From Ectopseudomonas composti (GTDB lineage Bacteria > Pseudomonadota > Gammaproteobacteria > Pseudomonadales > Pseudomonadaceae), in the NCBI RefSeq assembly GCF_001567565.1, contig NZ_LSSW01000002.1, positions 1-64,000 of the forward strand: 64,000 bases of DNA, read 5' to 3'. The notes under the pieces are model-generated. The model did not search any database and had not been told where the DNA came from. It saw only the letters and a list, made by a program, of their open reading frames with translations. The first letter of the stretch is position 1. Each line of letters opens with the position of its first letter. Position numbers and translations under genes: made by a program. This document shows, in pieces, positions 40,379-55,112 of the stretch.

Positions 40379-41056
40379 TTATTCGGGCAGTTGGCAGCCC
40401 TTCTGACGCAGCGATTCGATGACCCATCTGCGGTCGTTCTGGCCGGCGGCGATGCGTTCGAGCTGCGCAATTTCCGCGCGGTTCTTGGCGTCGGCGCGTT
40501 CATACACACCAGCGACTTCGTCGTAGGGCACGCACAGCAGGCCATCGTCGTCGCCGATCAGCAGATCGCCCGGCTCGATGACCATGCCGTCGATGGCGAT
40601 TGGTACATTGATTTCACCCGGGCCGTCCTTGTACGGGCCGCGATGGGTGATACCGGCGGCGAACAGGGGGAAGTCACCGGCGCGGATGGCTGCTGCATCG
40701 CGGATCGCCCCGTTGATGACGATGCCGGCAACTCCGCGCGTGGCGGCGTAGGCCACCATCATTTCGCCGATCAGGGCGTTGCTCAGGTCACCGCCAGCGT
40801 CGACCACCACCACGTCGCCGGGTTCGGCGATATCCAGTGCATGGTGCAGCATCAGGTTGTCACCCGGACGGGCCTTGACCGTCAGCGCCGGGCCGGCCAG
40901 GACGCCGCCGCCATGCATCGGACGCAGACGTGAGCCACCGGCGGTCATCCGGTTCATCGAGTCGCTGACGCAGGCGACAGGAACGTGGCGGAAACGCTCG
41001 ACCCACTCCGCGCTGACTTTGCGAGCGGCAGGCAGGACCCTGAATCCGATGGACAT
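40379..41056 (-). CDS. RraA-like aldolase/decarboxylase (HMG/CHA aldolase family)
   Basis: A 225-residue protein of the RraA/MenG-like family. It includes CVSDSMNRM near residue 33, GPALTVKARPGDNLMLHHALDIAEPGDVVVVDAGGD and GEMMVAYAATRGVAGIVINGAIRDAAAI, which carries the Arg and Asp residues used for metal-dependent retro-aldol or decarboxylation. Characterised relatives cleave 4-hydroxy-4-methyl-2-oxoglutarate or 4-carboxy-4-hydroxy-2-oxoadipate to pyruvate plus a keto acid. I start it at the ATG at 41056, preceded by GAGG. Upstream is a long GAAATG-N-CATTTC palindrome at 41093-41115, suggesting it belongs to the island regulon. Confidence 0.83.
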   Translation of the reverse strand: MSIGFRVLPAARKVSAEWVERFRHVPVACVSDSMNRMTAGGSRLRPMHGGGVLAGPALTVKARPGDNLMLHHALDIAEPGDVVVVDAGGDLSNALIGEMMVAYAATRGVAGIVINGAIRDAAAIRAGDFPLFAAGITHRGPYKDGPGEINVPIAIDGMVIEPGDLLIGDDDGLLCVPYDEVAGVYERADAKNRAEIAQLERIAAGQNDRRWVIESLRQKGCQLPE

Positions 41057-41092: not shown

Positions 41093-41115
41093 TTTATGAA
41101 ATGTCATTTCATAAA
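41093..41115. promoter_or_regulatory. Operator P1, extended GAAATG-N-CATTTC palindrome
   Basis: A perfect inverted repeat of 11-bp arms about a single central T: TTTATGAAATG and CATTTCATAAA. It lies 37-59 bp upstream of the RraA-like start codon on the minus strand. It has the longest arms of the five sites in the island and includes the core GAAATG-N-CATTTC found at the other four. Confidence 0.8.
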
Positions 41116-41243: not shown

Positions 41244-41334
41244 TTGAAATGCCATTTCTTTATGCTAGTCTGGATTGACCGTCGCCGGGCTGCCTCCCGG
41301 AAGCAGACGAACCAACAAGAACAAGGTACGCACC
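41244..41334 (+). promoter_or_regulatory. Leader copy 1: core promoter with operator P2 and hairpin
   Basis: TTGAAA at 41244-41249 overlaps operator P2 (GAAATG-C-CATTTC, 41246-41258); the -10 TAGTCT is at 41266-41271, a 16-bp spacer. A hairpin follows, CCGGG (41285-41289) pairing CCCGG (41296-41300). The leader ends AACAAGGTACGCACC before an ATG at 41335. The geometry is the same as at 46571 and 51738. Confidence 0.7.
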
Positions 41335-41586
41335 ATGACTCGAAGCACCCTGGGCAGCAGCCCGGCGCTATCGCCATCTGCCATGGCCTTTGCCGCCGCA
41401 GCGGCCGTCAAGCGCTCTGCGACCCGGCCCCATGGGCTGTCCGCCGAACTTCCCGCCCCCATCGCCGCTGACCAGTCTTGGGCTGTCACCGCCCGCCTGG
41501 GAATGGTCAGCCCTGAGTTGCCCTGCGCATCGCGCTCGCCCTTGCCGCGAAGTCACGCGCCCCGCGCCATCCGCGCAAGGCACTGA
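41335..41586 (+). pseudogene. Decayed 5' remnant of a D-hydroxyacid dehydrogenase gene
   Basis: The first 20 codons, MTRSTLGSSPALSPSAMAFA, parallel the start of the intact dehydrogenase at 46660 (MNRSILVTGPALSPSAMAFA). Beyond that a weaker match continues to about residue 66 (VKRSATRP versus VKVIPTRP; SWAVTARLGMVSPEL versus PGAAIVRQGKFAREL). An 83-codon frame is open, but the rest of a 326-residue dehydrogenase, including the NAD motif, is missing. I treat it as a truncated copy; a short leader peptide is an alternative. Confidence 0.6.
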
Positions 41587-41704
41587 CCCCGTTCGATTAC
41601 AACAAGACGGCTTTTCGCGGTTGGCGGACGGCGCGCAGCTCTGCGCGGCGCTCTGGCACCTCGTCAGGCCCCGGCCATACAGACGTTGTCACGAGGAACT
41701 GATC

Positions 41705-42691
41705 ATGGGATTCGCCAAACGCTATCTGCTTTCCAGCCTGGTACTGATCGGTAGCGCCGCTGCCGCTGTGGCGCACGCCGCCAACTGGACTGGCTACACC
41801 TATTCCGCCGTATCCACCACTGCCGCGGTGCAGGGCATGGAGCGGATTTCCCAGCGCATCAAGGCGGATACCGACGGAGACCTGTCGATCACCCTGCACC
41901 TGGGCAAGACCCTGCAGATTTCGTCGACCGATATCACGCAGGCTGCCGGTGACGGTATCGTCGATTTCGCCGCTGACCTGTTCTTCTCCGGCAACGTGCA
42001 GATCGCGCGCATCCTCAACCTGCCGATGTTGATCAACAACGCCGAGGAATGGGACAAGGCCTACAAGGTCATGGAGCCTTACCTCAAGGAGGGTTTCGCC
42101 AAACAGGGTGTGGCCTATCTGGGCAGCTACCGCTACCCGCAGCAGACCCTGTTCACGCGTTTCGAGATGCACGGCCTGGACGACCTGGCTGGGCGCAAGA
42201 TTCGCGTCACCTCGCCGGAGCAGGGCGCCTTCGTCGAGGCCTTCGGTGGTTCGGCGATCACCCTGGCTGGCACCGACGTGCCCAGTGCTCTGGAGCGCGG
42301 GGTGATCGACGGTGTGCTGACGGCCAGCGCGGGTGGGGCGAAGAACTGGCACGAATTCCTGCCGAACAACTACCGCCTGCCGGTCAGCTACGCCTTCAGT
42401 GCGCTGATCGCCAATCAGGATTCCTACGACGATCTGTCCGACGCCACCCGCGCCAAGCTCGATGCCATCGTCGCTGACGAAATCATCAAGATCGACCAGG
42501 GTTTCATCGAAGACGAGGAAGTGCAGAAGCAGAGCCAGGCCAAGGCCGGGATGAAGATCGTCGAGGTCGATGCGGCGACCGTCGCTGCCGCGCAGCAGAA
42601 GCTGGCGCCGTTCTGGCGTGAATGGGCCAAAGGCGCTGGCCCGCAATACGAGAAGGTCCTCGGCGAAGTCCTGCAAGCCCTTGGTAAGTAA
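41705..42691 (+). CDS. TRAP transporter substrate-binding protein (DctP family)
   Basis: A periplasmic binding protein of 328 residues with a signal peptide cleaved near residue 26 (AAAAVAHAANW). The DctP pattern is recognisable: FAADLFFSGNVQIARILNLPML, RKIRVTSPEQGAFVEAFGGSAITLAGTDVPSALERGVIDGVLTA with the conserved Arg that binds the ligand carboxylate. It starts at the ATG at 41705 with GAGGA upstream. Substrates in this family are organic acids; the ligand is unknown. dctQ and dctM follow. Confidence 0.9.
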   Translation: MGFAKRYLLSSLVLIGSAAAAVAHAANWTGYTYSAVSTTAAVQGMERISQRIKADTDGDLSITLHLGKTLQISSTDITQAAGDGIVDFAADLFFSGNVQIARILNLPMLINNAEEWDKAYKVMEPYLKEGFAKQGVAYLGSYRYPQQTLFTRFEMHGLDDLAGRKIRVTSPEQGAFVEAFGGSAITLAGTDVPSALERGVIDGVLTASAGGAKNWHEFLPNNYRLPVSYAFSALIANQDSYDDLSDATRAKLDAIVADEIIKIDQGFIEDEEVQKQSQAKAGMKIVEVDAATVAAAQQKLAPFWREWAKGAGPQYEKVLGEVLQALGK

Positions 42692-42706
42692 GAGCCGGAG
42701 CCGACC

Positions 42707-43228
42707 ATGAGCGAAGTAGATCTGCAGGCAGGGCAGCCGGTTTCGGCTGGCCGCCTATTCGATGGCGTGGCCGCGCTGGTGCGCTTCATCACCGGCCTGG
42801 CGCTGGTCTCGCTGGTGCTGCTGGTGTGCGCGGAGATTGTTTCGCGCTCGTTCTTCAGCTACTCGCTGAAGGTCATGGAAGAGCTGGCGGGTTACCTGGT
42901 GGTCGGCCTCACCCTGTTCGGCGCCAGTCTCAGCCTGCGCAGCAATAGCCTGTTCCAGGTCGGCTTCGTTCTGCATGCGCTGCCGGCAGCTCTGCAGCGC
43001 GTGCTCAACCTGCTGTTCCAGTTGATCTCGCTGGGCGTTTGCGCGGTGCTGATCTGGCAGACCGGCAAGCTGGTGCTGAGCTCCTATGCGCGTGGCAACG
43101 TTGCCCCCACCACGCTGATGACGCCGCTGTGGATTCCGCAACTGTTGGTGCCGCTGGGCCTGTCGATGATTGCCATCTTCATCATCGAACAGCTGATCGT
43201 CACGCTGCGCGCCAAGAGGGCTGAATGA
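42707..43228 (+). CDS. TRAP transporter small permease (DctQ family)
   Basis: A 173-residue inner-membrane protein with four membrane segments and the conserved start VARFITGLALVSLVLLVCAEIVSRSFF and EELAGYLVVGLTLFGASLSLR. It begins 15 bp after the receptor gene and overlaps dctM by 4 nt. Confidence 0.9.
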   Translation: MSEVDLQAGQPVSAGRLFDGVAALVRFITGLALVSLVLLVCAEIVSRSFFSYSLKVMEELAGYLVVGLTLFGASLSLRSNSLFQVGFVLHALPAALQRVLNLLFQLISLGVCAVLIWQTGKLVLSSYARGNVAPTTLMTPLWIPQLLVPLGLSMIAIFIIEQLIVTLRAKRAE

Positions 43229-44523
43229 TGGATGCTGCCATCGCTTTCATCGTGCTGCTGGTGCTGATCATCGGCGGTCTGTGGGTGCAGTTCGCGGTCG
43301 GCGCAGCGGCGCTGATCTACCTGTTCCTGTTCAAGGGCGTTACTGGCTGGAAGGCACTCGGCCTGGTCAGTTGGGGTTCGGCCAACAGCTTTACCCTGGC
43401 TGCCATTCCACTGTTCATCCTGATGGCCGAGATTCTCCTGGCCAGTGGCCTGAGCGGGCGTCTGTACAACGGCATCGCGCCGTTCGTGAAGCGCCTGCCT
43501 GGCGGCCTGCTGCATACCAACATCGTCGGCAGCGGCGTGTTCGCTGCCGTGGCGGGCGGCAGTGCGCCGACGGCGGCGGCCATGTCTACCGTGGCCTTGC
43601 CGGCGTTATCCGCGCGCGGTTACAACCGCCGGCTGGTAGCCGGTTCGCTGGCCGCTGGCGGCACCCTGGGGATTCTCATCCCGCCGTCGATCACCATGAT
43701 CATCTACGCCACTTTCACCGAAACCTCGATCGCCAAGTTGTTCGCTGCCGGCCTGATCCCGGGCATTCTGCTCGGCGCCTGCTACAGCCTGTTCATCATG
43801 GCGCGTGCGCTGCTCAACAAGGATCTGGTGCCGCGCGACACGCAACAGCGCTCGCTGCGCGATTACCTGCAGGCACTGAGCGACGTGCTCCCCTTCGGCC
43901 TGTTGATCCTGATGATCCTCGGCAGCATCTACAGCGGCCTGGCCACCCCGACCGAGGCCGGAGCACTGGGCGTGGTCGGCGCGATGTTGATTGCCGCGCT
44001 GTACCGTCGGCTGAATCTGGCCATGCTGCGCTCGGCCATGTCGCGCACCCTGCTGATGAGCGGCAACGTGCTGTTCATCGTGTTCATCTCGATGATCTTC
44101 GCCTACGCCACCGCGCTGTCCGGGGTGGGGGAACAGATGGTCGACTGGGTGGCGCAGGCCGGCCTGTCCAAGGTCGGCCTGTTGCTGATCCTGATGCTGG
44201 TGTTCGCCATTCTCGGCTGCTTCATGGAAGGCCTGGGCATGATCGCCATCATCGTTCCGGTGATTTTCCCGACGCTGATGGCCATGGGTGTGGATCCGAT
44301 CTGGTTCGGCATCTTCGTCGTCGTGCTGGTGGAACTGGGCCAGCTGACCCCGCCGCTGGGGGTGATCCTGTTCGTGGTCGCCGGTTCGGACAAGGACACC
44401 AGGGTGGAAGATGTGGTGATGGGCGTGCTGCCCTATTTCATCATCATCCTGGCCTTCCTGTTGCTGCTCATCGCGCTGCCCGACATCGCGCTGTGGTTCC
44501 CCAATCTGACCGTTGGAGGTTGA
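43225..44523 (+). CDS. TRAP transporter large permease (DctM family)
   Basis: A 432-residue membrane subunit with 12 or so membrane segments that couples uptake to the sodium or proton gradient. Typical motifs are IPLFILMAEILLASGLSGRLYN, GGSAPTAAAMSTVALP and GTLGILIPPSITMIIYA, plus PTEAGALGVVGAML. An ATG at 43228 is an alternative start. Together with the two genes before it a complete TRAP system is encoded. Confidence 0.93.
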   Translation: MMDAAIAFIVLLVLIIGGLWVQFAVGAAALIYLFLFKGVTGWKALGLVSWGSANSFTLAAIPLFILMAEILLASGLSGRLYNGIAPFVKRLPGGLLHTNIVGSGVFAAVAGGSAPTAAAMSTVALPALSARGYNRRLVAGSLAAGGTLGILIPPSITMIIYATFTETSIAKLFAAGLIPGILLGACYSLFIMARALLNKDLVPRDTQQRSLRDYLQALSDVLPFGLLILMILGSIYSGLATPTEAGALGVVGAMLIAALYRRLNLAMLRSAMSRTLLMSGNVLFIVFISMIFAYATALSGVGEQMVDWVAQAGLSKVGLLLILMLVFAILGCFMEGLGMIAIIVPVIFPTLMAMGVDPIWFGIFVVVLVELGQLTPPLGVILFVVAGSDKDTRVEDVVMGVLPYFIIILAFLLLLIALPDIALWFPNLTVGG

Positions 44524-44527
44524 TAGC

Positions 44528-45466
44528 ATGGCCTTTCCCCATCCCGATCCGCTGCTGATCGAGGCCGAAGTCTTCACCAGTCTGCCGCCGGCGCTGCGCC
44601 GTCCCGCTGCGCGCTCCTACTGGGCCGACAAGAATCGTCGCGGCGCACCGGTGGACAGCTTTATCGAAGGGCCGTCGTTCGATCTGCAGGGCAACCTGTG
44701 GTTCGTCGACATCCCCTTCGGGCGCATCTTCCGCGCCTCGCCGGGCGGCGAGGTGGAACTGATGGCCGAGTACGACGGCCAGCCCAACGGCCTGAAGATC
44801 GATGCCCACGGGCGCATCTTCATCGCCGATTTCCGCAACGGCATCATGAGCCTCGACCCGGCCAGCGGTCAGGTCGAGACCGTGCTCGGCGATGCCGACA
44901 GCGAAGGCTTCAAGGGCTGCAACGATCTGCACTTCGGCCCTGATGGCGCGCTGTATTTCACCGATCAGGGGCAGACCGGCCTGCAGGATCCCAGTGGGCG
45001 TGTCTATCGCTGGTATCCGGACAGCGGCCGCCTGGATTGCCTGATCGACAAGGTGCCGAGCCCCAACGGTCTGGTGCTCGATAGCAGCGGGCACACCCTG
45101 TACGTGGCGGTGACCCGCGCCAATGCGGTCTGGCGTCTGCCGCTGTCGCAGAGCCAGCGGGTGGTCAAGGCCGGGCTGTTTCTGCAGTTCTCCGGCGGCC
45201 GCGCCGGGCCGGATGGCCTGGCGCTGACCCGCGACAACGGCGTGGTGGTCTGCCAGACCGGCATGGGCCTGGTGTGGGTGCACGATGCCCTCGGCATTCC
45301 GATTGCGGTGGTGCGCTCGCCCAAGGGCCTGGGTACCACCAACTGCGCTTTCGGCGGACCGGACGGGCGCACGCTGTACATCACCGAGTCCGACTCGGGC
45401 TCCATTCTGCGCGCCGAGCTGCCGGTGGCGGGGCAGCCGATGGCCTCGGGCTGGGGCTTGCGCTAG
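44528..45466 (+). CDS. SMP-30/gluconolactonase-like lactonase
   Basis: A six-bladed propeller hydrolase of the SMP-30/LRE family, 312 residues, that opens sugar-acid or related lactones with a divalent metal. Metal-ligand positions are recognisable: E in FIEGPSFD, N in KGCNDLHFGPDG, N in PSPNGLVLD and D in GPDGLALTRD. The ATG at 44528 follows GGAGG. It is the last gene of the TRAP operon, suggesting the transported acid or its product is a lactone or forms one. Confidence 0.88.
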   Translation: MAFPHPDPLLIEAEVFTSLPPALRRPAARSYWADKNRRGAPVDSFIEGPSFDLQGNLWFVDIPFGRIFRASPGGEVELMAEYDGQPNGLKIDAHGRIFIADFRNGIMSLDPASGQVETVLGDADSEGFKGCNDLHFGPDGALYFTDQGQTGLQDPSGRVYRWYPDSGRLDCLIDKVPSPNGLVLDSSGHTLYVAVTRANAVWRLPLSQSQRVVKAGLFLQFSGGRAGPDGLALTRDNGVVVCQTGMGLVWVHDALGIPIAVVRSPKGLGTTNCAFGGPDGRTLYITESDSGSILRAELPVAGQPMASGWGLR

Positions 45467-45615
45467 GTCATCGTTCGCGGCGCGGCGCCGTCGCCAGGAG
45501 GGGGGCGCCGCGCGCCTCATCTTCACGCCATGCGCTACAAATGTGGCGCATCCGGTCGTCGGGGCTCGATAATGCTCGGCAAACTGCTAAATCGTCTGTC
45601 GATGAGGAACTCTTG

Positions 45616-46320
45616 ATGATCAAAACACGCCCTCGCCCGGCCGTCAGTGGCGTCGCTTCGGCCGACCGCGTTCTGACCGTGTTGACCGCGTTTCAGGTGG
45701 GTGATGTTTCGTTGGGGCTGGTCGAGCTCGCCGAGCGCACCGGCCTGAACAAGAGCACCATCATGCGCCTGACGGTATCGCTGGAAACCTTCGGTCTGAT
45801 CAATCGCATGGCCGATGGGCGCTACCAGCTGGCCAGCGAGGTCATGCGCCTGAATGCCGTCTACCAGGACGCCCTCGACCTGGAGCGGCATGTCATGCCG
45901 GTGCTGCAGGCGCTGACCGACGAAACCGGCGAAACCGCCTCGCTCTACGTGCGCCATGGCGCCTATCGCCTGTGCCAGTATCGGGTCAACTCGCCGCATC
46001 GCCTGCGTCTGCACCTGCAGCCAGGCGACATGCGGCCTATGGACAATGCTGCCGGCGCCCAGGCGCTGCGTACCAGCATCGACAAGGCGCGAACCCTCAC
46101 CGAGCCGTTCTACTCCAGCGGGGTCACCGACCCACATGCGGCGGCCATGGCGCTGCCGATCTTCGGCGCGGGTGATGAGATGGTCGGTGCGCTGATGATC
46201 TCCGGGCCTGCCAGCCGGCTCACCGAGGAGCGTGCCGGCATTCTGCGCGAGGCGTTCTGCAAGGCAGCGGCCGATCTGGCTCGCAGCCTGGGTTGCAAGG
46301 TCGATTTCACCTGGGGCTGA
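45616..46320 (+). CDS. IclR-family transcriptional regulator
   Basis: A 234-residue regulator. The N-terminal winged HTH (about residues 10-70) reads VLTAFQVGDVSLGLVELAERTGLNKSTIMRLTVSLETFGLI, typical IclR. The C-terminal GAF-like effector domain has ETASLYVRHGAYRLCQYRVNS and GVTDPHAAAMALPIFGAGDEMVGALMISGPASRL. The ATG at 45616 lies after GAGGAAC. It is the only regulator inside the island and therefore the natural reader of the GAAATG-N-CATTTC sites; whether it represses or activates is not visible, but sites overlapping -35 elements suggest repression. Confidence 0.9.
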   Translation: MIKTRPRPAVSGVASADRVLTVLTAFQVGDVSLGLVELAERTGLNKSTIMRLTVSLETFGLINRMADGRYQLASEVMRLNAVYQDALDLERHVMPVLQALTDETGETASLYVRHGAYRLCQYRVNSPHRLRLHLQPGDMRPMDNAAGAQALRTSIDKARTLTEPFYSSGVTDPHAAAMALPIFGAGDEMVGALMISGPASRLTEERAGILREAFCKAAADLARSLGCKVDFTWG

Positions 46321-46458
46321 AGGCGGCTGAGCTGTGGTAGTGCGTCGGTCTGTCTGACCGCGTGCGGCCCATGAGTGAGCAGATACTCCGCGAAACGCCC
46401 CTCTGGCCCATGGCCTTGCTGGCTTAGGGTCGGCAGGCTACACGCCTTGCCATTTATC

Positions 46459-46471
46459 GAAATGGCATTTC
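46459..46471. promoter_or_regulatory. Operator P3 (GAAATG-G-CATTTC)
   Basis: A perfect 13-bp palindrome 201 bp upstream of the dehydrogenase ATG and 139 bp past the IclR stop codon. It lies 114 bp upstream of P4, at a distance that would allow DNA looping between two bound dimers. Confidence 0.75.
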
Positions 46472-46570
46472 TTTTTTGTATTTTTAATTGCGCTGATCTC
46501 GTCATGAATCTGGGTTTTTGCTCGGTTTTGTTGTGGTTTCGCTGGAGTCTTCTTTTCCTTTTTCTTATTT

Positions 46571-46659
46571 TTGAAATGCCGTTTCTTTATGGTAATCTGC
46601 CTACTGCTCCGGTGGGGTAGCCCCGCCGTTGGTGAACATAAAAGAACAAGGTACGCACC
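46571..46659 (+). promoter_or_regulatory. Leader copy 2: core promoter with operator P4 and hairpin
   Basis: TTGAAA at 46571-46576 overlaps GAAATG-C-CGTTTC (46573-46585, one mismatch in the right arm); TAATCT is at 46593-46598. Hairpin CGG-T-GGGG (46610-46617) pairs with CCCC-G-CCG (46621-46628). The leader ends AACAAGGTACGCACC before the ATG at 46660. Confidence 0.75.
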
Positions 46660-47640
46660 ATGAATCGAAGCATCCTGGTTACAGGTCCGGCGTTGTCGCC
46701 TTCTGCCATGGCCTTCGCCGCCGAACAGGGCGTCAAGGTCATTCCGACCCGGCCTTACGCGCCGCTCGACGAGCTCCTCGCCATCATCGCCAGCGAGCAG
46801 CCGGGTGCGGCCATCGTCCGTCAGGGCAAGTTCGCTCGCGAACTGATCGACGCTGCGCCCGATCTGAAGATCATCGCCAAGCATGGTGTGGGCTACGACA
46901 CCATCGACATTCAGGCTGCAGCCGCACGCAATATCCCGGTGACCATCGCCCTGGGTGCCAATGCCCAGTCGGTGGCCGAGCATGCCTTCGCCCTGATGTT
47001 CGCCGTGGCCCGCCAGGTGGCCTGGCTGGATGGCCGTATGCGCGCCGGTCACTGGGACAAGGCCACCGCCAAGGGCGTGGAGCTGTCCGGCAAGACCCTG
47101 GGCCTGGTCGGCCTGGGCTCGATTGGCGGGATCCTGCTCGACCTGGTCGCGCCGCTGAAGATGCAGGTGCGTATTTTCGATCCTTACCTGAAGCATCTGC
47201 CTGAGCGTGACAACGTCAGTCGCGAGAGCGACTTCCAGCGCCTGCTCGAAGAGTGCGACGTGATCAGCCTGCACTGTCCGCTGACCGCCGATAACCGCCA
47301 CCTTATTGGCGCCGAGCAGCTCAAGCTGATGAAGCCCGAGAGCATTCTGGTCAACACGGCGCGTGGTGAGCTGATCGACAGTCAGGCGCTGGCGGCCGCG
47401 CTGCGTGCCGGCGAGATTGGCGGGGCCGGCCTGGATACCTTCGAGCAGGAGCCGCCAGCAGCCGACAGCGAGCTGTGGTCGCTGGGCAATCTGGTGGCGA
47501 CCCCGCATGTGGGGGCCAACACGCAGGCGTCGCAGGATCGTGTAGGCCTGCTTGCGGTGCAGCAGATCGTCGCCCACTGGGCCGGCGAAGCGCTGGAGCC
47601 GCGTTGCGTGGTCAACCGCCACCTGCTGCCAGGGGGCTGA
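46660..47640 (+). CDS. D-isomer-specific 2-hydroxyacid dehydrogenase (phosphoglycerate dehydrogenase-like)
   Basis: A 326-residue NAD(P)-dependent oxidoreductase. The nucleotide fold starts GKTLGLVGLGSIGGILLDLVAP (GxGxxG around residue 148), and the catalytic trio is recognisable as Arg in NTARGELIDSQAL, Glu in DTFEQEPP and His in TPHVGANTQAS. Substrate is not predictable; relatives act on 3-phosphoglycerate, glyoxylate, tartronate or other 2-keto/hydroxy acids. It is the only intact gene preceded by the triplicated leader. Downstream are a TTT transporter and an amidohydrolase. Confidence 0.9.
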   Translation: MNRSILVTGPALSPSAMAFAAEQGVKVIPTRPYAPLDELLAIIASEQPGAAIVRQGKFARELIDAAPDLKIIAKHGVGYDTIDIQAAAARNIPVTIALGANAQSVAEHAFALMFAVARQVAWLDGRMRAGHWDKATAKGVELSGKTLGLVGLGSIGGILLDLVAPLKMQVRIFDPYLKHLPERDNVSRESDFQRLLEECDVISLHCPLTADNRHLIGAEQLKLMKPESILVNTARGELIDSQALAAALRAGEIGGAGLDTFEQEPPAADSELWSLGNLVATPHVGANTQASQDRVGLLAVQQIVAHWAGEALEPRCVVNRHLLPGG

Positions 47641-47773
47641 GCAGCACTGCGGGCCGTTGACACGAGCCGGCCCGAGCGGGCTCGCTAGCGCCCCGAACTG
47701 ACACCCAGCTTCACACTGAGCGCCGCATGTGTGCGGTGTTCGCTATTCCCACAATAAAAACAAGGGAAAGCTC

Positions 47774-48745
47774 ATGAAAACGCTGCTTGCGAAGGTTGCA
47801 CTTCGCCATGGCCTTCTGGCTGCCACTGCCCTGCTGATGTCGCTGCTGCTGCCCGTGGCGCAGGCTGCGGACTATCCGAGCCGGGCCATTTCGCTGATCG
47901 TGCCCTACGGCGCGGGTGGTACCACGGATATTTCCGCCCGGCGTCTGGCGGCTCTGGCCGAGCCACTGCTGGGCCAGCCGGTGGTGGTGGAAAACCGCCC
48001 CGGTGGCGGTGGCATCAATGCCATGCGCGCGCTGGCGGCGGCCAAGCCTGATGGCTACGCGCTGATCGCCACCACCTCGTCGCCGCTGTTCGTGACCCCG
48101 GCGCTGCGTCCGGTCGGCTATGACCCGATTGCCGATTTCGTCTCGCTGATGAATTACTCCGGCCCCTATCACGGTGTGCTGGTGCGGGCCGACAGCCCCT
48201 ATCACTCGCTGGATGAGCTGATCCGCGCGGCAGCGTCCGGCAAGCGCCTGACCTACGGTACGGCGGGGGCGCTGAGTGGCCCGCGCCTGACCTTCACTGC
48301 GCTGGCGCGCAAGGCCCAGGCGGACCTGCAGCACGTGCCTTTCAGCAGTGCTTCCAGTGTCACCGCGGCGCTGCTCGGCGGGCATATCGACATTGCTCTG
48401 GTGCCGGCTTACCGCGATATGGTCAGGAGCGAGCGCCTGCGTCTGCTGGGTGTGCTCGACGACAGTCGCGACCCGGATTTTCCGCAGATTCCGACCCTGA
48501 CCGAGGCCGGCTATGCCATCGAATTTCCCTCCATCGTCGGCCTGATGGTGCCGCGTGGTGTGCCGCCCGAGCGCGTCGAGCGTCTGCGTGCAGCGTTCGC
48601 CGAAGCGGCGGCGTCGGAATCCTTCGCCCGTGACATGGACAAGCTCAGTCAGCCGGTACGGATCATGTCCGGCGCGCAGATGGACGAGGTGATCGAGCGC
48701 AATCTGCTGGTCTACCGCAACCTGGCCGAGGAGCTGAAACGATGA
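47774..48745 (+). CDS. Tripartite tricarboxylate transporter receptor (TctC/Bug family), system 1
   Basis: A 323-residue periplasmic binding protein with a signal peptide (ATALLMSLLLPVAQA, cleavage before ADYPS) and the Bug-family pattern SLIVPYGAGGTTDISARRLAAL, VVENRPGGGGINAMRALAAAKPDGYAL and VPFSSASSVTAALLGGHIDIALVP. The ATG at 47774 follows AGGGAAAG. Ligands are carboxylates; tctB and tctA follow immediately. Confidence 0.9.
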   Translation: MKTLLAKVALRHGLLAATALLMSLLLPVAQAADYPSRAISLIVPYGAGGTTDISARRLAALAEPLLGQPVVVENRPGGGGINAMRALAAAKPDGYALIATTSSPLFVTPALRPVGYDPIADFVSLMNYSGPYHGVLVRADSPYHSLDELIRAAASGKRLTYGTAGALSGPRLTFTALARKAQADLQHVPFSSASSVTAALLGGHIDIALVPAYRDMVRSERLRLLGVLDDSRDPDFPQIPTLTEAGYAIEFPSIVGLMVPRGVPPERVERLRAAFAEAAASESFARDMDKLSQPVRIMSGAQMDEVIERNLLVYRNLAEELKR

Positions 48746-49218
48746 GTGCCAAGCTATCCGGCGGTGCGTCCGCCAAACCCTGCCGTTTCGGCCTGCAGAG
48801 CCTGGCTACTCTGATCATTCTGCTGCTGGCGCTGGCCGGCTTGCTGGCCCTGCAGAGCCAGGTGCTGGTGTTCGACTTCGGTGACAGCGGCCCGGATGCG
48901 CGTTTCTTTCCACGGCTGATTCTCGCCTTGCTGGTGCTGGCCACCGGTCTGCGTCTGTGGTTGCGGCGAAGTAGTGTCGAGGATGCCCCCGGCCCGGTGG
49001 TGCACTGGGGTCGTGTGCTGCTGATCGGCCTGCTGATCGCAGGCGCCGTGCTGGCCATGGATGCGCTGGGTTTTCTGCTTTGCGCGGCGGCGGTTGGTGT
49101 GCTGCTGGCCTGGGTGCTGGGCGAGCGGCGGGTGCTGCTAGGCGTGCTGCTGCCGCTGGTAGTGGCTGTGCTGGTCACCTTCGGTGCGCGCTACGCACTG
49201 AACATTCCCCTTCCCTGA
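48742..49218 (+). CDS. TTT small permease (TctB family), system 1
   Basis: A 158-residue inner-membrane protein with four membrane segments and the TctB signature GPDARFFPRLILALLVLATGLRLW. It overlaps the receptor gene by 4 nt. The family is weakly conserved, so position supports the call. Confidence 0.82.
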   Translation: MSAKLSGGASAKPCRFGLQSLATLIILLLALAGLLALQSQVLVFDFGDSGPDARFFPRLILALLVLATGLRLWLRRSSVEDAPGPVVHWGRVLLIGLLIAGAVLAMDALGFLLCAAAVGVLLAWVLGERRVLLGVLLPLVVAVLVTFGARYALNIPLP

Positions 49219-49233
49219 CTGGCGGAGCCTGCC

Positions 49234-50718
49234 ATGCTTCTCGAAGCCTTTTACGCATTGTTCGACATATGGGTGCTGGTCGCGGCTGTCTGCGGTGTCG
49301 TCGTCGGCATCATCATCGGCGCCATTCCGGGCCTCGGCCCGACTATGGCCATCGCCCTGCTGATTCCGGTGACCTTCGGCATGTCGCCGGTTCCGGCGAT
49401 CATCCTGCTACTGGGGGTCTACCAGGGCGCTATCTTCGGCGGCTCGATCTCCGCCATCCTGCTCAATGTGCCCGGTACGCCGTCCTCGGCGGCCACCGTG
49501 CTCGATGGTTACCCCATGGCGCGTCAGGGGCGCGCCGGCGAAGCGCTGCGCGTGGCGCTGTATTCCAGCGTGTTCGGCAATCTGTTCAGCTGTGTGGTGC
49601 TGATCCTGCTGGCGCAGCCGCTGGCAGCCTTCGCCCTGGATTTCGGCCCCGCGCAGATGGCCGCGCTGATGTTCTTCGCGCTGTCGATCATCGTACTGTT
49701 CGGCGGTGGCTCGAAGCTCGACTCGGCGATCATGGTGCTGGTCGGTATCGCCGCCAGCATCGTGGGTCTCGACCCCATCGAAGGCCTGCCGCGCTTCACC
49801 TTCGGCAGCTTCGCCGCCGAGGATGGCCTGCAGCTGATTCCGGTGTTGATCGGTCTGTTCGCCATGTCCGAGGTGTTGCAGCAGGTGTTCGAGCGTCGCC
49901 GTGGCGAGCGCGCGGCGGTCGAGCCGGTTTCGGTGGATAGCGGCAAGGTGGGCTTTCTGGCCATGTGGCGGATGCGCAGCACGCTGCTGCTGTCGTCGTT
50001 GATCGGCACCTTCGTCGGCATCCTGCCGGGCATCGGCTCCACCGTGCCGGCGTTCGTCAGCTACAACCTGGCGCGCTCGCGTTCGCCACGCAAGGAGGCC
50101 TTCGGCAAGGGTGAGGCAGAGGGCGTGGCCGCGCCGGAAGCAGCCAACAATGCCGTGACTGGCGGGGCGCTGGTGCCGACGCTGGCGCTGGGTATTCCTG
50201 GCGACGCGGTGACGGCGGTGATCCTCGGCGCCTTCATGCTGCAGGGTCTGACTCCGGGGCCGTTCCTGTTCCGTGATCACGGCGTGGAAGTCTATGCGAT
50301 CTTCCTGGCGCTGATCCTGCTGTCGATTCCCTGCATCATCTTCGGCCTGGCGATGTTCCGTGGCGCGGTGCACGTGATCCGCATCCAGGCTCGTCACCTC
50401 TATCCGTTGATCACCATTCTCGCGCTGTTCGGCGCCTACTCGGTGAACAACAGCCTGTTCGATGTCGGCGTGATGCTCGCGGCCGGTGGTGTCGGCTTCG
50501 CCTTGCGCCGTGCCGGGTTCCCGCTGCCGCCGTTGCTGATTGGCCTGATCCTCGGTCAGTCGCTGGAGCAGAGCCTGCGTCAGGCATTGCTGGCCGGTGG
50601 TGGCAGTGCCGACATCTTCCTCAACTCGCCCATCGTCCTGGCGCTGCTCGGGGTGACCCTGCTGTGCGGGCTCGGTGCCGCCTGGCAGCACCGGCGCCAG
50701 GCCGTTCGAGGAGCTTGA
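49234..50718 (+). CDS. TTT large permease (TctA family), system 1
   Basis: A 494-residue transporter with about 12 membrane segments. TctA hallmarks: GIIIGAIPGLGPTMAIALLIPVTFGM, LGVYQGAIFGGSISAILLNVPGTPSSAATVLDGYPMARQG, and VAAPEAANNAVTGGALVPTLALGIPG. It completes the first TTT system (genes 47774-50718). Confidence 0.94.
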   Translation: MLLEAFYALFDIWVLVAAVCGVVVGIIIGAIPGLGPTMAIALLIPVTFGMSPVPAIILLLGVYQGAIFGGSISAILLNVPGTPSSAATVLDGYPMARQGRAGEALRVALYSSVFGNLFSCVVLILLAQPLAAFALDFGPAQMAALMFFALSIIVLFGGGSKLDSAIMVLVGIAASIVGLDPIEGLPRFTFGSFAAEDGLQLIPVLIGLFAMSEVLQQVFERRRGERAAVEPVSVDSGKVGFLAMWRMRSTLLLSSLIGTFVGILPGIGSTVPAFVSYNLARSRSPRKEAFGKGEAEGVAAPEAANNAVTGGALVPTLALGIPGDAVTAVILGAFMLQGLTPGPFLFRDHGVEVYAIFLALILLSIPCIIFGLAMFRGAVHVIRIQARHLYPLITILALFGAYSVNNSLFDVGVMLAAGGVGFALRRAGFPLPPLLIGLILGQSLEQSLRQALLAGGGSADIFLNSPIVLALLGVTLLCGLGAAWQHRRQAVRGA

Positions 50719-50720
50719 GC

Positions 50721-51521
50721 ATGCGTCCGCCCGTTGCAGCGCCGCTGTGCGATTGCCACATTCATGTGTTTTCGCCGGATCGCGTCTATGCCGAGGCCAG
50801 CTACCGGCCGCCGCGCAAGAGCATCGAGGCGTTTCGCCGGGAGGCGCAGGTTGCAGGCATGGGCCGTGCCGTGCTGGTGCAGGCGTCGATCGATGGCAGC
50901 GATAACAGCCATCTGCTCGAGGTGCTGCGCAATACCACGGATATCGAGTTGCGCGGCGTGGCGATGATCGACGAGCACAGCCAGAACCTCGCTGAGCTGG
51001 ATGCTGCTGGCGTACGCGCGATCCGCATCCAGGATCGCAGTCGTCTCGGTATCAACGACCTGCCACGCCTGCCGGCGCTGGCTGCGCGGGCGGCCGAGCA
51101 GGGCTGGCATGTCGAGCTGAATACCGAGCCGCAGCGCTACGCTGCGCTGCAGGCAAGGCTCGGCGAGCTGCCGGCAGGGCAGGCGCTGGTGCTCGATCAC
51201 TTCGGCCAGATCGCTCCGGACAGCACTGCAGATCTCGCCGGCCTGAGTCGCCTGCTCGACAGCGGGCGGGTCTGGGTCAAGCTGGCGCCGACCCGTGTCA
51301 GTCGTCAGCCTGGCCGGTATGACGACCTCGCCGCGCCGTTGCGTCATCTGCTCACGCAGTACACCGAGCGCTGCCTGTGGGGCAGTGACTGGCCGCATGT
51401 GATGACGGCCGAACCGCTGCCGCAGTCAGCGGACATGCTGGCGTTTCTCCAGCGCGAGCTGGACGCGCGTCAGTTACAGGCCTGCCTGGTGGACAATCCG
51501 GCGCGACTCTATCGTTTCTGA
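50721..51521 (+). CDS. Amidohydrolase-2 family hydrolase (PDC/sugar lactonase-like)
   Basis: A TIM-barrel hydrolase of 266 residues. It begins with the metal-binding motif CDCHIHVF (residues 10-17) and has VLDHFGQIAPDS and, near the end, LWGSDWPHVMTAEP with the catalytic Asp. It resembles COG3618 proteins such as 2-pyrone-4,6-dicarboxylate lactonase (LigI) and L-rhamnonolactonase-type enzymes. It is 2 bp after tctA, in the same operon as the dehydrogenase. The function is probably lactone hydrolysis; the exact substrate is open. Confidence 0.82.
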   Translation: MRPPVAAPLCDCHIHVFSPDRVYAEASYRPPRKSIEAFRREAQVAGMGRAVLVQASIDGSDNSHLLEVLRNTTDIELRGVAMIDEHSQNLAELDAAGVRAIRIQDRSRLGINDLPRLPALAARAAEQGWHVELNTEPQRYAALQARLGELPAGQALVLDHFGQIAPDSTADLAGLSRLLDSGRVWVKLAPTRVSRQPGRYDDLAAPLRHLLTQYTERCLWGSDWPHVMTAEPLPQSADMLAFLQRELDARQLQACLVDNPARLYRF

Positions 51522-51725
51522 GATCTTATTTAATAGAACGATATTTCTATTTATAGATTTTAAAGCCCGCGGCTGGAGTCGCCTTTGGCTCGCTTCAGGC
51601 GGTCGCGGCTGAGAGCATGCCGAGAAAGCACACAGTTTACGGTGCTTTTTAGAGCTATTTATCGCTGTTTGAGTGCGTGGTGACGCACTCTGCAGCATTT
51701 TTCAGGGTGTGAGCTGGGTGAAGCT

Positions 51726-51752
51726 GAAATGGCATTATTGAAATGACATTTC
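51726..51752. promoter_or_regulatory. Operator P5 with adjoining half site
   Basis: GAAATG-A-CATTTC (51740-51752) is a perfect palindrome. Next to it GAAATGGCATTA (51726-51737) matches all but the last two bases, so this is a double site. It is the only promoter in the island with two sites this close together. Confidence 0.7.
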
Positions 51753-51826
51753 TATATGTTAGGCTTCAGCCTATTCGCAGCAGGCCTGACCTGCCCCTGG
51801 TGAAGTAGAACAACAAGGTCCGCACC
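51738..51826 (+). promoter_or_regulatory. Leader copy 3: core promoter with operator P5 and hairpin
   Basis: TTGAAA at 51738-51743, 16 bp, TAGGCT at 51760-51765. Hairpin GCAGG (51780-51784) pairs with CCTGC (51790-51794). The leader ends AACAAGGTCCGCACC before the ATG at 51827. The distance from -10 to ATG is 67 bp, the same as in copy 2 and two less than in copy 1. Confidence 0.7.
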
Positions 51827-51997
51827 ATGAGTCGAAGCATCTCCCTGCCGGGCGCCTGGCTGCGTCCCTGCATCCTGCCCCTCGGCGCGACTGCGCCAGG
51901 TTTTCAGCTCCGCACCTCATTCGTCTTTTGCCTGGCGCCGCTGCCTGTGTCGGCCGCTGCCCGGCCGGCCCATGCCTGTTTCGGTTCGACTGCCTGA
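51827..51997 (+). other. Short ORF after leader copy 3 (leader peptide or gene remnant)
   Basis: A 56-codon frame beginning MSRSISLPGAW, sharing only the first five codons (MxRSI) with the dehydrogenase at 46660. The rest is Pro/Ala/Leu-rich and unlike any family I know. It shares the start context AACAAGGTCCGCACC-ATG with the other two leaders. It is either a more decayed dehydrogenase start or a real short peptide. Confidence 0.4.
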
Positions 51998-52118
51998 TCG
52001 GCCTGCCTGCCGATCGTCAAAACGGCGCCCCGGGTTTTGCGAGGCGCCACTGTGTAGAGAAGAAGAGCCAAGGCAGCAGTGCCGCGGCTATCAGGAAGCC
52101 CCAACGAGGATCGTCCCC

Positions 52119-53099
52119 ATGATCGGCAAAATCACAAGAAAGCTAACCGCCAGTGCCCTGGTTGCCCTGGCCATGTCGACTCTCCCGGCTCACGCGGATG
52201 ATTATCCGCAGGGCAACATCGGTTTCATCGTGCCGTTCCCGCCTGGCGGTGGCACCGATATCTCCGCGCGTCAGCTGACCCAGCAGATTGGTGAAAGCAC
52301 CGGCTGGACCTTCGTGGTCGAGAACCGTCCCGGCGCCGGCGGCAACATCGGCCTGGCGCAGCTGGCCCGGGCCAAGGCCGATGGCCTCAGCCTGGCCATC
52401 GGCCAGACCTCCAACCTGGCGGTCAACCCCAGCCTGTACAAGGACATTCCCTACGACCCGCTGAAGGACTTCCGCCAGATTGCGGTGATCTCCACCCAGC
52501 CGATGGTCATCGTTACCCGCAGTGATTCGTCGATCAAGGATCTGCCCAGCTTCCTCGCCGATGCCAAGGCCGAGCCGGGCAGCCTGCTGTTCGGCACGCC
52601 GGGCTCGGGCACCGTGGCTCACCTGTCGCTGGAGCTGCTGCAGAGCAAGGCCGGCATCGAGCTGACCCACGTGCCGTACCCGGGCATCGCCCAGGCCATC
52701 AGTGACGTGATGGGGGGCGTGGTCGACATCTACATAGGCAGCATGCCCAGCGTCCTGCCACATATCCGCGCCGGCTCGCTGCGGCCGCTGGCCGTGACTT
52801 CGGCGCAGCGCAGCCCGATCCTGGCGGACGTGCCGACGGTGGCCGAGAGCGGCTTCGCCGGCTTCGAGACCGCCGACTGGAAAGCCGTGGTCGGCCCTGC
52901 CGGGCTCTCCGACGAGCGTGTTGCCCAGCTCAATCAGGTGATCAATGAAGCCCTGCGCTCGGACAAGGTGCGCAAGGCCATGGAAGCCGAGGGCAGCACC
53001 GTGCTCAACGAAGACAGCGCCTACTTCACCACTTTGCTGGGTGAGGAAATCGAGCGCTGGCGCGAAGTGATCAAGGTCTCCGGCGCCACCGTCAACTAA
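52119..53099 (+). CDS. TTT receptor (TctC/Bug family), system 2
   Basis: A 326-residue periplasmic binding protein with a signal peptide (ALVALAMSTLPAHADD) and the Bug motifs GFIVPFPPGGGTDISARQLTQQIG, FVVENRPGAGGNIGLAQLARAKADG and LFGTPGSGTVAHLSLELLQSKAG. It starts at the ATG at 52119, with AGGA upstream; the frame upstream is open but lacks a ribosome site. tctB and tctA follow after 55 and 11 bp. Confidence 0.92.
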   Translation: MIGKITRKLTASALVALAMSTLPAHADDYPQGNIGFIVPFPPGGGTDISARQLTQQIGESTGWTFVVENRPGAGGNIGLAQLARAKADGLSLAIGQTSNLAVNPSLYKDIPYDPLKDFRQIAVISTQPMVIVTRSDSSIKDLPSFLADAKAEPGSLLFGTPGSGTVAHLSLELLQSKAGIELTHVPYPGIAQAISDVMGGVVDIYIGSMPSVLPHIRAGSLRPLAVTSAQRSPILADVPTVAESGFAGFETADWKAVVGPAGLSDERVAQLNQVINEALRSDKVRKAMEAEGSTVLNEDSAYFTTLLGEEIERWREVIKVSGATVN

Positions 53100-53154
53100 G
53101 GCTGCAACTGCCGGGGGCTGCCCGTCTAGCTCCTGGCCTTTCGAGGAATTCGCA

Positions 53155-53598
53155 ATGTCACAGCGTAACTATCAGGACGCGATCAGCGGCCTGCTGATTG
53201 CGGTGTTCGGCGTGGTGATCGCGCTTTACGCGGTCAACCACTACAACATCGGCAGCATTCAGCGCATGGGCCCGGGCATGTTTCCGGTGGCCATGGGCAG
53301 CGTGCTGGCGGTGCTCGGCGCGCTGCTGGCCCTGTTCGCCTGGCTGCGTCCGGGGCTGCGCGAGGGCATGCCGGTGCAGTGGCGCCCGGCGCTGCTGGTG
53401 CTTGGCGCCATCGCGTTCTTCGCGCTGGCGGTGACCTACTCCGGCCTTATCCCGGGCGTGCTCGGCGTGGTGCTGATCTCCGCCATGGCCGATCGCAAGA
53501 CCCGCGCGAAACAGGCGTTGCTGCTCAGCGCCGCGCTGGTGCTGCTCGCTTACCTGATCTTCCAGCTCGCGCTGGATATGAACTTCGACCTGTTCTGA
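53155..53598 (+). CDS. TTT small permease (TctB family), system 2
   Basis: A 147-residue, four-segment membrane protein with IGSIQRMGPGMFPVAMGSVLAVLGALLALFAW, the TctB signature. The ATG at 53155 follows a GAGG-type site. Confidence 0.85.
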   Translation: MSQRNYQDAISGLLIAVFGVVIALYAVNHYNIGSIQRMGPGMFPVAMGSVLAVLGALLALFAWLRPGLREGMPVQWRPALLVLGAIAFFALAVTYSGLIPGVLGVVLISAMADRKTRAKQALLLSAALVLLAYLIFQLALDMNFDLF

Positions 53599-53609
53599 AA
53601 GGTGCCGGA

Positions 53610-55112
53610 ATGTCCTTCGCTGACAATCTGCTGATCGGCATGGAGACCGCCTTCTCCTGGTACAACCTGTTCTATTGTTTCGTCGGAGTGTTCATGGGCA
53701 CCCTGCTCGGGGTGATTCCGGGCATTGGCGTGCTGGCGGCCATCTCCATGCTGTTCCCGATGACGTTCCACCTGGAGCCCACCGCCGCGCTGATCATGCT
53801 CGCCGGCATCTGGTACGGCACCAGCTACGGCGGCAGCACGGCGTCGATCCTGCTCAACGTGCCGGGCACGCCGTCCAGCGCGGTAACCTGCCTCGACGGC
53901 TACCCGATGGCGCAGCAAGGGCGCGGCGGCGTGGCGCTGCTGATGACCACCGTGGCGTCGTTCTTCGGCGGTTCGTTTGGCATCATCCTGCTGATGAGCC
54001 TGGCCTCGACCATCAGCCACTACGCCCTGAGCTTCTCCTCGGCGGAGTACTTCGCGTTGATGCTGCTAGGCCTGGTGGCGGCCTCGAACATTTCCGGCGG
54101 CTCGCTGCTCAAGGGCCTGATCATGGTGGCCTTCGGCATCCTCTTTGGCACTGTCGGCAGTGACATCTATACCGGCACGCGGCGCTTCGACTTCGGTGTG
54201 CTCGACCTGGCCGACGGCATCAACCTGGTGGCGCTGGCCATGGGGCTGTTCGGTGTCGCCGAGGTGATCGCCAGCATCGGCAAGGTCGACGGCGGCCAGG
54301 TCGATCGCAAATCTCTGCGTCTGGCGGCGATGAAGCCCACCCGTGACGATCTCAAGCGCTCCTGGTGGCCGATGCTGCGTGGCTCGAGCATCGGTTCGTT
54401 CTTCGGCACGCTGCCGGGCACTGGTCCGTCCATCGCGGCGTTTCTCGCCTATGCCACCGAGCGTCGTCTGGCCCGTGAGCCGGAGCGTTTCGGCAAGGGC
54501 GCCATCGAGGGCATCGTCGCGCCGGAGTCGGCCAACAATGCGGCCGACCAGACCGCCTTCATCCCCACCCTGGCATTGGGCATTCCCGGCAGTGCGACCA
54601 TGGCGCTGATGCTCGGTGCGCTGATGATCCACGGCATCGCCCCCGGCCCCCAATTGATGACTGACCAGCCTTCGCTGTTCTGGGGCCTGGTGATCAGCTT
54701 CTGGATCGGCAACCTGCTGCTGGTGATCCTCAACGTGCCGCTGATCGGCCTCTGGGTGCGCCTGCTGATGGTGCCGTACCACCTGCTGTTCCCGGCGGTG
54801 CTGATGTTCGTCTGCATCGGCACTTACAGCGTCAACCACAGCGCCTTCGACGTGCTGGTGGTGACCCTGTTCGGCGCCTTCGGTTACGCCATGCGTGTGC
54901 TTGGTTTCCCTGCTGCGCCATTGCTGCTGGGTTTCGTCCTCGGGCCGATGATGGAGGAGCACTTCCGCCGCGCCATGCTGCTGTCGCGTGGGGATTTCAT
55001 GACCTTTGTCGAGCGGCCGATCAGCGCCACCGTGCTGGCCTTTACCGTCCTGGTGTTGCTGCTGGGCTTGCGCCCGCTGCTAATGGCCTGGCGCAAGCCC
55101 CGCTCGGCCTGA
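53610..55112 (+). CDS. TTT large permease (TctA family), system 2
   Basis: A 500-residue transporter. TctA hallmarks: GVFMGTLLGVIPGIGVLAAISMLFPMTF, GGSTASILLNVPGTPSSAVTCLDGYPMAQQG and GIVAPESANNAADQTAFIPTLALGIPG. The frame starts further upstream inside tctB, but the ATG at 53610 and the receptor-family start MSFADNLLIGMETAF are the natural beginning. It converges on mdcR with 12 bp between. Confidence 0.94.
   Translation: MSFADNLLIGMETAFSWYNLFYCFVGVFMGTLLGVIPGIGVLAAISMLFPMTFHLEPTAALIMLAGIWYGTSYGGSTASILLNVPGTPSSAVTCLDGYPMAQQGRGGVALLMTTVASFFGGSFGIILLMSLASTISHYALSFSSAEYFALMLLGLVAASNISGGSLLKGLIMVAFGILFGTVGSDIYTGTRRFDFGVLDLADGINLVALAMGLFGVAEVIASIGKVDGGQVDRKSLRLAAMKPTRDDLKRSWWPMLRGSSIGSFFGTLPGTGPSIAAFLAYATERRLAREPERFGKGAIEGIVAPESANNAADQTAFIPTLALGIPGSATMALMLGALMIHGIAPGPQLMTDQPSLFWGLVISFWIGNLLLVILNVPLIGLWVRLLMVPYHLLFPAVLMFVCIGTYSVNHSAFDVLVVTLFGAFGYAMRVLGFPAAPLLLGFVLGPMMEEHFRRAMLLSRGDFMTFVERPISATVLAFTVLVLLLGLRPLLMAWRKPRSA

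Follow-up and report, generated by a model that had tools for sequence, protein, structure and literature searches.

The stretch analysed here, referred to below as the window, consists of 64,000 nt of contig NZ_LSSW01000002.1 of Ectopseudomonas composti (GCF_001567565.1), and all coordinates are given in it. Our subject is a locus in which three similar leaders, each composed of a promoter with an operator over its -35 element, a predicted hairpin, an A-rich ribosome site and a start codon, stand before a D-2-hydroxyacid dehydrogenase gene (leader 2) and before two short open reading frames (ORFs) that are followed by transporter genes (leaders 1 and 3). The order of the locus is RraA (on the minus strand), leader 1 with its ORF, a tripartite ATP-independent periplasmic (TRAP) transporter, an SMP-30-like gene, an IclR gene, leader 2 with the dehydrogenase, a tripartite tricarboxylate transporter (TTT), an amidohydrolase, leader 3 with its ORF and a second TTT transporter. 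No tRNA was found in the window, and no Rfam match at gathering score, that is, no known riboswitch or leader. The features are the following.

40379..41056, minus strand: RraA-like aldolase gene, divergent to leader 1 (Pfam PF03737, E 1.1e-47)
41098..41110, no strand: perfect operator palindrome GAAATGTCATTTC, 5' of the RraA gene (pattern match)
41244..41271, plus strand: leader 1 promoter TTGAAA-N16-TAGTCT, with the operator at 41246-41258 (pattern match)
41280..41309, plus strand: predicted hairpin of leader 1; an outer-stem pair is U-A in the window and C-G in G113 and P818
41314..41326, plus strand: AACAAGAACAAGG, ribosome site of leader 1, with two overlapping AAnAAnAA (CA) motifs
41335..41586, plus strand: short ORF 1, 83 aa, a decayed copy of the dehydrogenase start by alignment
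41705..44523, plus strand: TRAP transporter DctP-DctQ-DctM (DctP PF03480, DctM PF06808; DctQ only by position and length)
44528..45466, plus strand: SMP-30/gluconolactonase-like gene (PF08450)
45616..46320, plus strand: IclR-family regulator, the likely reader of the operator (PF09339/PF01614; an IclR homologue is present in 13/13 related contexts)
46459..46471, no strand: second perfect operator palindrome, 5' of leader 2 (pattern match)
46571..46598, plus strand: leader 2 promoter TTGAAA-N16-TAATCT, with the operator at 46573-46585, one mismatch (pattern match)
46610..46628, plus strand: predicted hairpin of leader 2, arms CGGTGGGG/CCCCGCCG (folding)
46642..46651, plus strand: AAGAACAAGG, CA motif overlapping the dehydrogenase ribosome site (motif scan)
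46660..47640, plus strand: D-2-hydroxyacid dehydrogenase gene, with leader 2 as its native leader (PF02826/PF00389)
47774..50718, plus strand: TTT transporter TctC-TctB-TctA (TctC PF03401; TctB and TctA assigned from gene order and length)
50721..51521, plus strand: amidohydrolase gene (PF04909)
51738..51765, plus strand: leader 3 promoter TTGAAA-N16-TAGGCT, with the operator at 51740-51752 (pattern match)
51771..51808, plus strand: predicted hairpin of leader 3; one pair is G-C, G-U or A-U across three species
51809..51818, plus strand: AACAACAAGG, CA motif overlapping the leader 3 ribosome site (motif scan)
51827..51997, plus strand: short ORF 3, 56 aa, with no protein constraint
52119..55112, plus strand: second TTT transporter TctC-TctB-TctA, 3' of leader 3 (TctC PF03401; TctB and TctA assigned from gene order and length)

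The sequence-only reading from which we started described a common promoter TTGAAA-N16-TARNCT, and this is indeed present at 41244, 46571 and 51738. The operator that it placed over the -35 element is found as the palindrome GAAATGNCATTTC at all three leaders (with one mismatch in the copy at 46573), the distance from the start of the -10 element to the ATG, announced as 67-69 bp, measures 69, 67 and 67 bases, and the hairpins lie at the same place with stems built from different bases, all three as written (CCGGG/CCCGG in leader 1, GCAGG/CCTGC in leader 3). When the own genome is scanned with the promoter pattern, the three leaders match with at most one mismatch and two more sites with three mismatches (one at 46457, the other on another contig). 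The fixed start context is shared by the three leaders, but its literal pattern, missing one T, matches nowhere; in the corrected form AACAAGG-T-N-CGCACC-ATG-A-N-TCGAAGCA it matches three times in the own genome (5.27 Mb, up to three mismatches allowed), each time in this locus. It was also held that only the middle copy precedes an intact gene. The outer leaders do enter short ORFs, but the transporter genes which start about 120 bases after these ORFs (DctP at 41705, TctC at 52119) are intact.

The sites of IclR-family group 2 are described as TGRAACAN1-2TGTTYCA (PMC8222616). The 15-bp odd palindrome of this locus, TGAAATGNCATTTCA (TGCAACGNCGTTTCA in relatives), resembles them and lies near an IclR gene, although it deviates at up to two positions per half-site. 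Promoters close to the IclR gene carry an IclR-type palindrome, as would be expected for an IclR regulon, and the neighbouring IclR protein is likely to be the one that reads it. A further operator copy, with two mismatches, is seen at 51726-51738, 14 bases 5' of the leader 3 operator.

A search of 398 genomes of the genus for the dehydrogenase (cut-off E <= 1e-80) gave matches in 37 of them, the own genome included, at 65-100% identity. We read the upstream regions from all 37 genomes and from Pseudomonas sp. P818, which makes 38 dehydrogenase leaders, and added six copies (from the window, genome G113 and P818) to obtain a set of 44. The promoter/operator pattern TTGNAANGNCNTTTCNTTNTGNTAGNNT, with up to two mismatches, is present in 35 of the 38 dehydrogenase leaders and in 6/6 copies (41/44 overall); in the remaining three the operator is present and the spacer is shifted. 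The dehydrogenase leaders of relatives also end in the same type of A-rich ribosome site, and the stretch between promoter and site is species-specific. Because the same promoter and the same type of ribosome site precede the dehydrogenase in relatives, we assign the leader to this gene, and what had been called a fixed start context is the dehydrogenase ribosome site together with the first codons. The outer two leaders contain the same elements and the first codons of the dehydrogenase, placed before transporter genes, and ORF 1 is still alignable with the dehydrogenase 5' end.

For 13 of the 37 genomes we examined a larger gene context. The RraA, dehydrogenase and IclR genes lie within 19 kb in all 13, and in 11 of them RraA and the dehydrogenase are divergent neighbours. 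In the two exceptions RraA faces either leader 1 (G113, as in the window) or a leader-3-like copy before a second TTT transporter (G063). It is likely that the transporter genes were inserted behind the dehydrogenase leader and that the leader was copied along. The DctP of leader 1 has matches in just two of the 398 genomes, G000 and G113 (E <= 1e-70), and the second TctC in three, G000, G113 and G063 (E <= 1e-90). Pseudomonas sp. P818 is 86-90% identical to the window over this stretch. A scan of 199 genomes of the genus with the core pattern gave matches in nine, of which just two, the own genome and G113, have the complete set of three; the match in G031 is a dehydrogenase leader, and six other genomes match with two or three mismatches. 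Among named genomes, the exact core was found at 10 loci, three of them in P818; for the other seven, blastn against the window gave nothing at 1e-10, and they were taken as chance. Viral contigs gave no match, plasmid records gave two distant dehydrogenases, and further draws of relatives added no new dehydrogenase or core match. One record filed as a plasmid, NZ_CP064203.1 of Acinetobacter baumannii, is 3.97 Mb long and probably a chromosome; its dehydrogenase is 61% identical. The dehydrogenase match in G146 (locus L032) contains one in-frame TAG.

For the comparisons that follow, leaders with alignable untranslated parts were merged by a gap-aware score, which superseded an earlier identity threshold that had put 42 of the 44 leaders in one cluster, and this left 27 mutually unalignable groups. 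As controls we used 90 other gene starts, each preceded by 120 or more intergenic bases, from stretches of G000, G113, G163, G018 and G149.

The A-rich ribosome sites contain a known signal. The motif AAnAAnAA near a start codon marks targets of Crc, and its mutation 17 nt upstream of estA abolished control (PMC3480352). This published Hfq/Crc motif is present in AAGAACAAGG, AACAACAAGG and AAAAACAAGG, and all three leaders of the window carry it within about 50 nt of the start codon, at 18 to 21 nt as compared to 17 nt in estA. Of the 44 leaders, 37 have it, and 23 of the 27 groups have one or more members with it, versus 2/90 control starts (within -26..-9; 1/90 with a narrower and 4/90 with a wider range). 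When 15 plus-strand starts of the three gene sets in the window were examined, four had the motif, namely leaders 1, 2 and 3 and the first TctC, and it was absent at DctP and at the second TctC, which are the first real genes behind the copies. The first TctC, behind the dehydrogenase, has a site of its own, AATAAAAACAAGG at 47753-47765, with two CA motifs. The own genome also encodes the antagonist RNA CrcZ (one match, 329 bits, cut-off 95), and among its many CA motifs one equals AACAACAAGGT, as in leader 3.

Structural work on Hfq in complex with amiE, estA and rbsB places ARN repeats on one face of the protein and a hairpin on the other, and describes a hairpin beside the A-rich motif whose role is called unclear there (PMC9890229); Crc stabilises such Hfq complexes (PMC8266614). 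The leaders studied here resemble the three regions in combining an ARN-rich motif at the ribosome site with a hairpin in the same leader. They differ from them in that three paralogous copies stand in one locus, with unrelated stems and predicted Hfq/Crc sites, and in that two of the copies have a start codon without a conserved product.

Taken one by one, the window hairpins do not fold above chance: 47, 51 and 162 of 200 shuffles were equal or better for leaders 1, 2 and 3, respectively. Folding above matched controls is seen over the 27 groups, and not in the window leaders taken singly. The mean fold z was -1.17 over the 44 leaders and -1.16 over the groups (24/27 negative), as compared to -0.34 for the 90 controls at the same position and +0.05 for coding parts, and groups differed from controls both on z (Mann-Whitney p = 8e-5) and on energy (p = 0.004). 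A longest helix of at least 6 bp is found in 21 of the 27 group representatives versus 52% of shuffles, and in the 26 of 27 representatives that have a helix the loop is centred 20.5 +/- 4.0 nt past the -10 element. The stem sequence itself is free, and the hairpin regions do not allow a sequence alignment between species. Where the window, G113 and P818 are compared, one pair is compensated in leader 1 (U-A to C-G, 30/30 cells paired) and one in leader 3 (G-C, G-U, A-U, 41/42 cells paired). The earlier claim that the stems keep pairing as a result of selection on RNA structure therefore stands in part, being backed by the folding of the 27 groups and by these two pairs, but leader 2 has none and breaks are as frequent as kept changes. 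All in all, selection on a hairpin of free sequence has moderate support.

Such a hairpin might, however, serve as a stabiliser of the mRNA 5' end or as an insulator, in a manner unrelated to Hfq/Crc. The loop centre lies near the likely 5' end and the stem sequence is free, both of which fit this explanation, and it concerns the hairpin alone, being otherwise compatible with Hfq/Crc control of the leaders. On the other hand, published Hfq/Crc complexes do contain hairpins (PMC9890229), and we consider a stabiliser or insulator possible but less likely than not.

Of the short ORFs, ORF 1 is open for 83 aa in the window and 78 in G113, and for at least 76 in P818, whose locus stops there; the open length of ORF 3 is 56 aa in all three. 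The ratio of nonsynonymous to synonymous change (dN/dS) is 0.97-1.17 for ORF 1 and 0.82-0.95 for ORF 3, as compared to 0.04-0.07 for the dehydrogenase. Retention of the frames was tried as a sign of translation and rejected, because simulated unconstrained change keeps such frames open with a probability of 0.33-0.67. The start region (-24 to +24), by contrast, is better conserved than codons 9-56, both in leader 1 (40/48 versus 83/144, p = 0.0016) and in leader 3 (45/48 versus 100/144, p = 0.0004). As the start region is conserved and the product unconstrained, selection seems to act on the start of translation at the short ORFs and not on the peptide, and the suggestion that the leader matters as an RNA element in its own right is borne out to this extent.

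It could be argued that leaders 1 and 3 are simply decayed duplicates of which only the promoter and operator are used, the hairpin, the CA motif and the start codons being leftovers of the dehydrogenase. The ORFs do evolve at a dN/dS near 1, their open frames are expected by chance, ORF 1 is recognisable as a dehydrogenase fragment, and conservation of the start region does not significantly exceed that of the hairpin part. However, the ribosome site (in leader 3 also the first codons) is conserved well above the rest of the ORF, pairing is maintained in the hairpins of leaders 1 and 3, and a copy resembling leader 3, with ACCATGAATCGAAGC, has been retained by a species whose TctC is only 72% identical, and we therefore hold mere decay to be unlikely. 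That the ORFs are leader peptides or attenuators sensing a metabolite or an amino acid during translation is highly improbable: all three species keep the frames open, and the aligned ORFs contain no gap that shifts the frame (in P818, ORF 1 to the end of the locus), but dN/dS is about 1 and shows no protein constraint, neither ORF has an NCBIfam match, the window has no Rfam match, and open frames of this kind arise by chance in GC-rich DNA.

Short leader ORFs under Hfq control are known. In leader ORFs of the uof-fur type, Hfq control is exerted through a small RNA and direct coupling. The likeness to our locus, where such control is only proposed, is that a downstream gene is controlled by way of a leader ORF on which Hfq acts; the small RNA and the direct coupling are what sets uof-fur apart. 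Another parallel is cbrX, a leader ORF of P. putida that is proposed to carry an Hfq/Crc site; its translation is needed for cbrA, and its peptide sequence is irrelevant (PMC6591292). Both systems have a short leader ORF with an Hfq/Crc site, proposed there and predicted here. cbrX is, however, conserved and overlaps cbrA by 17 nt; in our locus about 120 nt separate the end of each ORF from the next gene, and the encoded peptides are not conserved.

Judged by their elements, the leaders appear to unite the layout of Hfq/Crc-repressed initiation regions with that of a cbrX-type leader ORF, and they are best read as belonging to the Hfq/Crc-controlled type, present here as three copies of the dehydrogenase leader. 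Each copy would probably act as a portable RNA leader that imposes IclR and Hfq/Crc control on the genes behind it. In this scenario, the IclR protein would cover the -35 element when the inducer is missing. In the presence of a preferred carbon source, Hfq and Crc would bind AAGAACAAGG or AACAACAAGG and block the ribosome from starting, and the hairpin just upstream might help to seat or time the Hfq/Crc complex. The message, left untranslated, would then terminate early or decay and so lower expression of the transporter genes that follow the short ORF; repression at ORF 1 and ORF 3 would most likely reach the genes some 120 bases on in this way, through polarity or message decay. The short ORF would thus matter as a place where ribosomes start, and not for its peptide. 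Once the preferred carbon is exhausted, CrcZ RNA would draw off Hfq and Crc. A bolder version, which we regard as rather doubtful, is that operator, promoter, hairpin of free sequence, Hfq/Crc site and start codon move as a unit, as a portable cassette whose start codon, at its new place, has no other function than to be an Hfq/Crc target, which silences the genes behind it via a sacrificial, product-free ORF and in which selection maintains the hairpin as a working component of the Hfq/Crc assembly.

A number of observations weigh against Hfq/Crc control through copied leaders and a selected hairpin. The exact CA motif is missing in 7 of the 44 leaders and in 4 of the 27 groups (their sites end in ACCAAGG), and the motif, although also published as a mark of Hfq/Crc targets, does not always predict a response (PMC12533007). 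Removal of the estA hairpin strengthened repression (PMC9890229), so the role of the hairpin may be opposite to the one proposed. With about 120 bases between the ORF stops and the transporter starts, direct coupling as in cbrX is unlikely, and one has to invoke polarity or decay. As to folding, a tighter segment gave positive z in two of the three window leaders (+0.13 for leader 1, +0.53 for leader 3, -1.51 for leader 2), p <= 0.05 was reached by only 11/44 leaders versus 8/90 controls, and leader L058 (one of the 44) has no hairpin. Control starts too fold slightly better than shuffles, and a smaller first control of 30 starts gave a mean z of -0.92 (sd 1.66); leader segments ranged from 20 to 55 nt and control segments were fixed at 38 nt; and the pairing profile differs only modestly from that of shuffles. 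As to covariation, leader 2 has no compensated pair and 2/12 pairs broken (in a gapped alignment), and among 92 pairs in ten alignable sets three changed on both sides and four on one side and still pair, as compared to seven with a break or gap. A pair-count shuffle control, with three rows only, was not significant (168/500 for leader 1, 306/500 for leader 3). Finally, conservation in leader 1 sits in the ribosome site (23/24) rather than in codons 1-8 (17/24), and in neither copy 1 nor copy 3 does conservation of the start region significantly exceed that of the hairpin part (p = 0.30 and 0.17).

If Hfq/Crc control by copied leaders is true, new genes can come under carbon repression by leader copying, without evolving a site at each gene. 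Among the titles and abstract openings listed in the literature searches, none describes a duplicated Hfq/Crc leader like these, subscription papers being outside the coverage. As the same layout occurs in many species with freely changing stems, the role of the hairpin in Hfq/Crc control can be tested directly, and a controlled comparison is possible between the three natural copies of the locus. A perhaps independent case is a distant TTT operon in G001 (locus L073, position 7585, minus strand; tblastn 32-50% identity), in which TctC is preceded by a promoter/operator of similar type, a CA motif and an ORF of 25 aa. Lastly, the interval between ORF 3 and TctC (51998-52118) contains a stretch that looks by eye like a hairpin, with GGCGCC flanking a loop with GGGTTTTG, and this stretch is partly present in G113 (locus L064), with small gaps.

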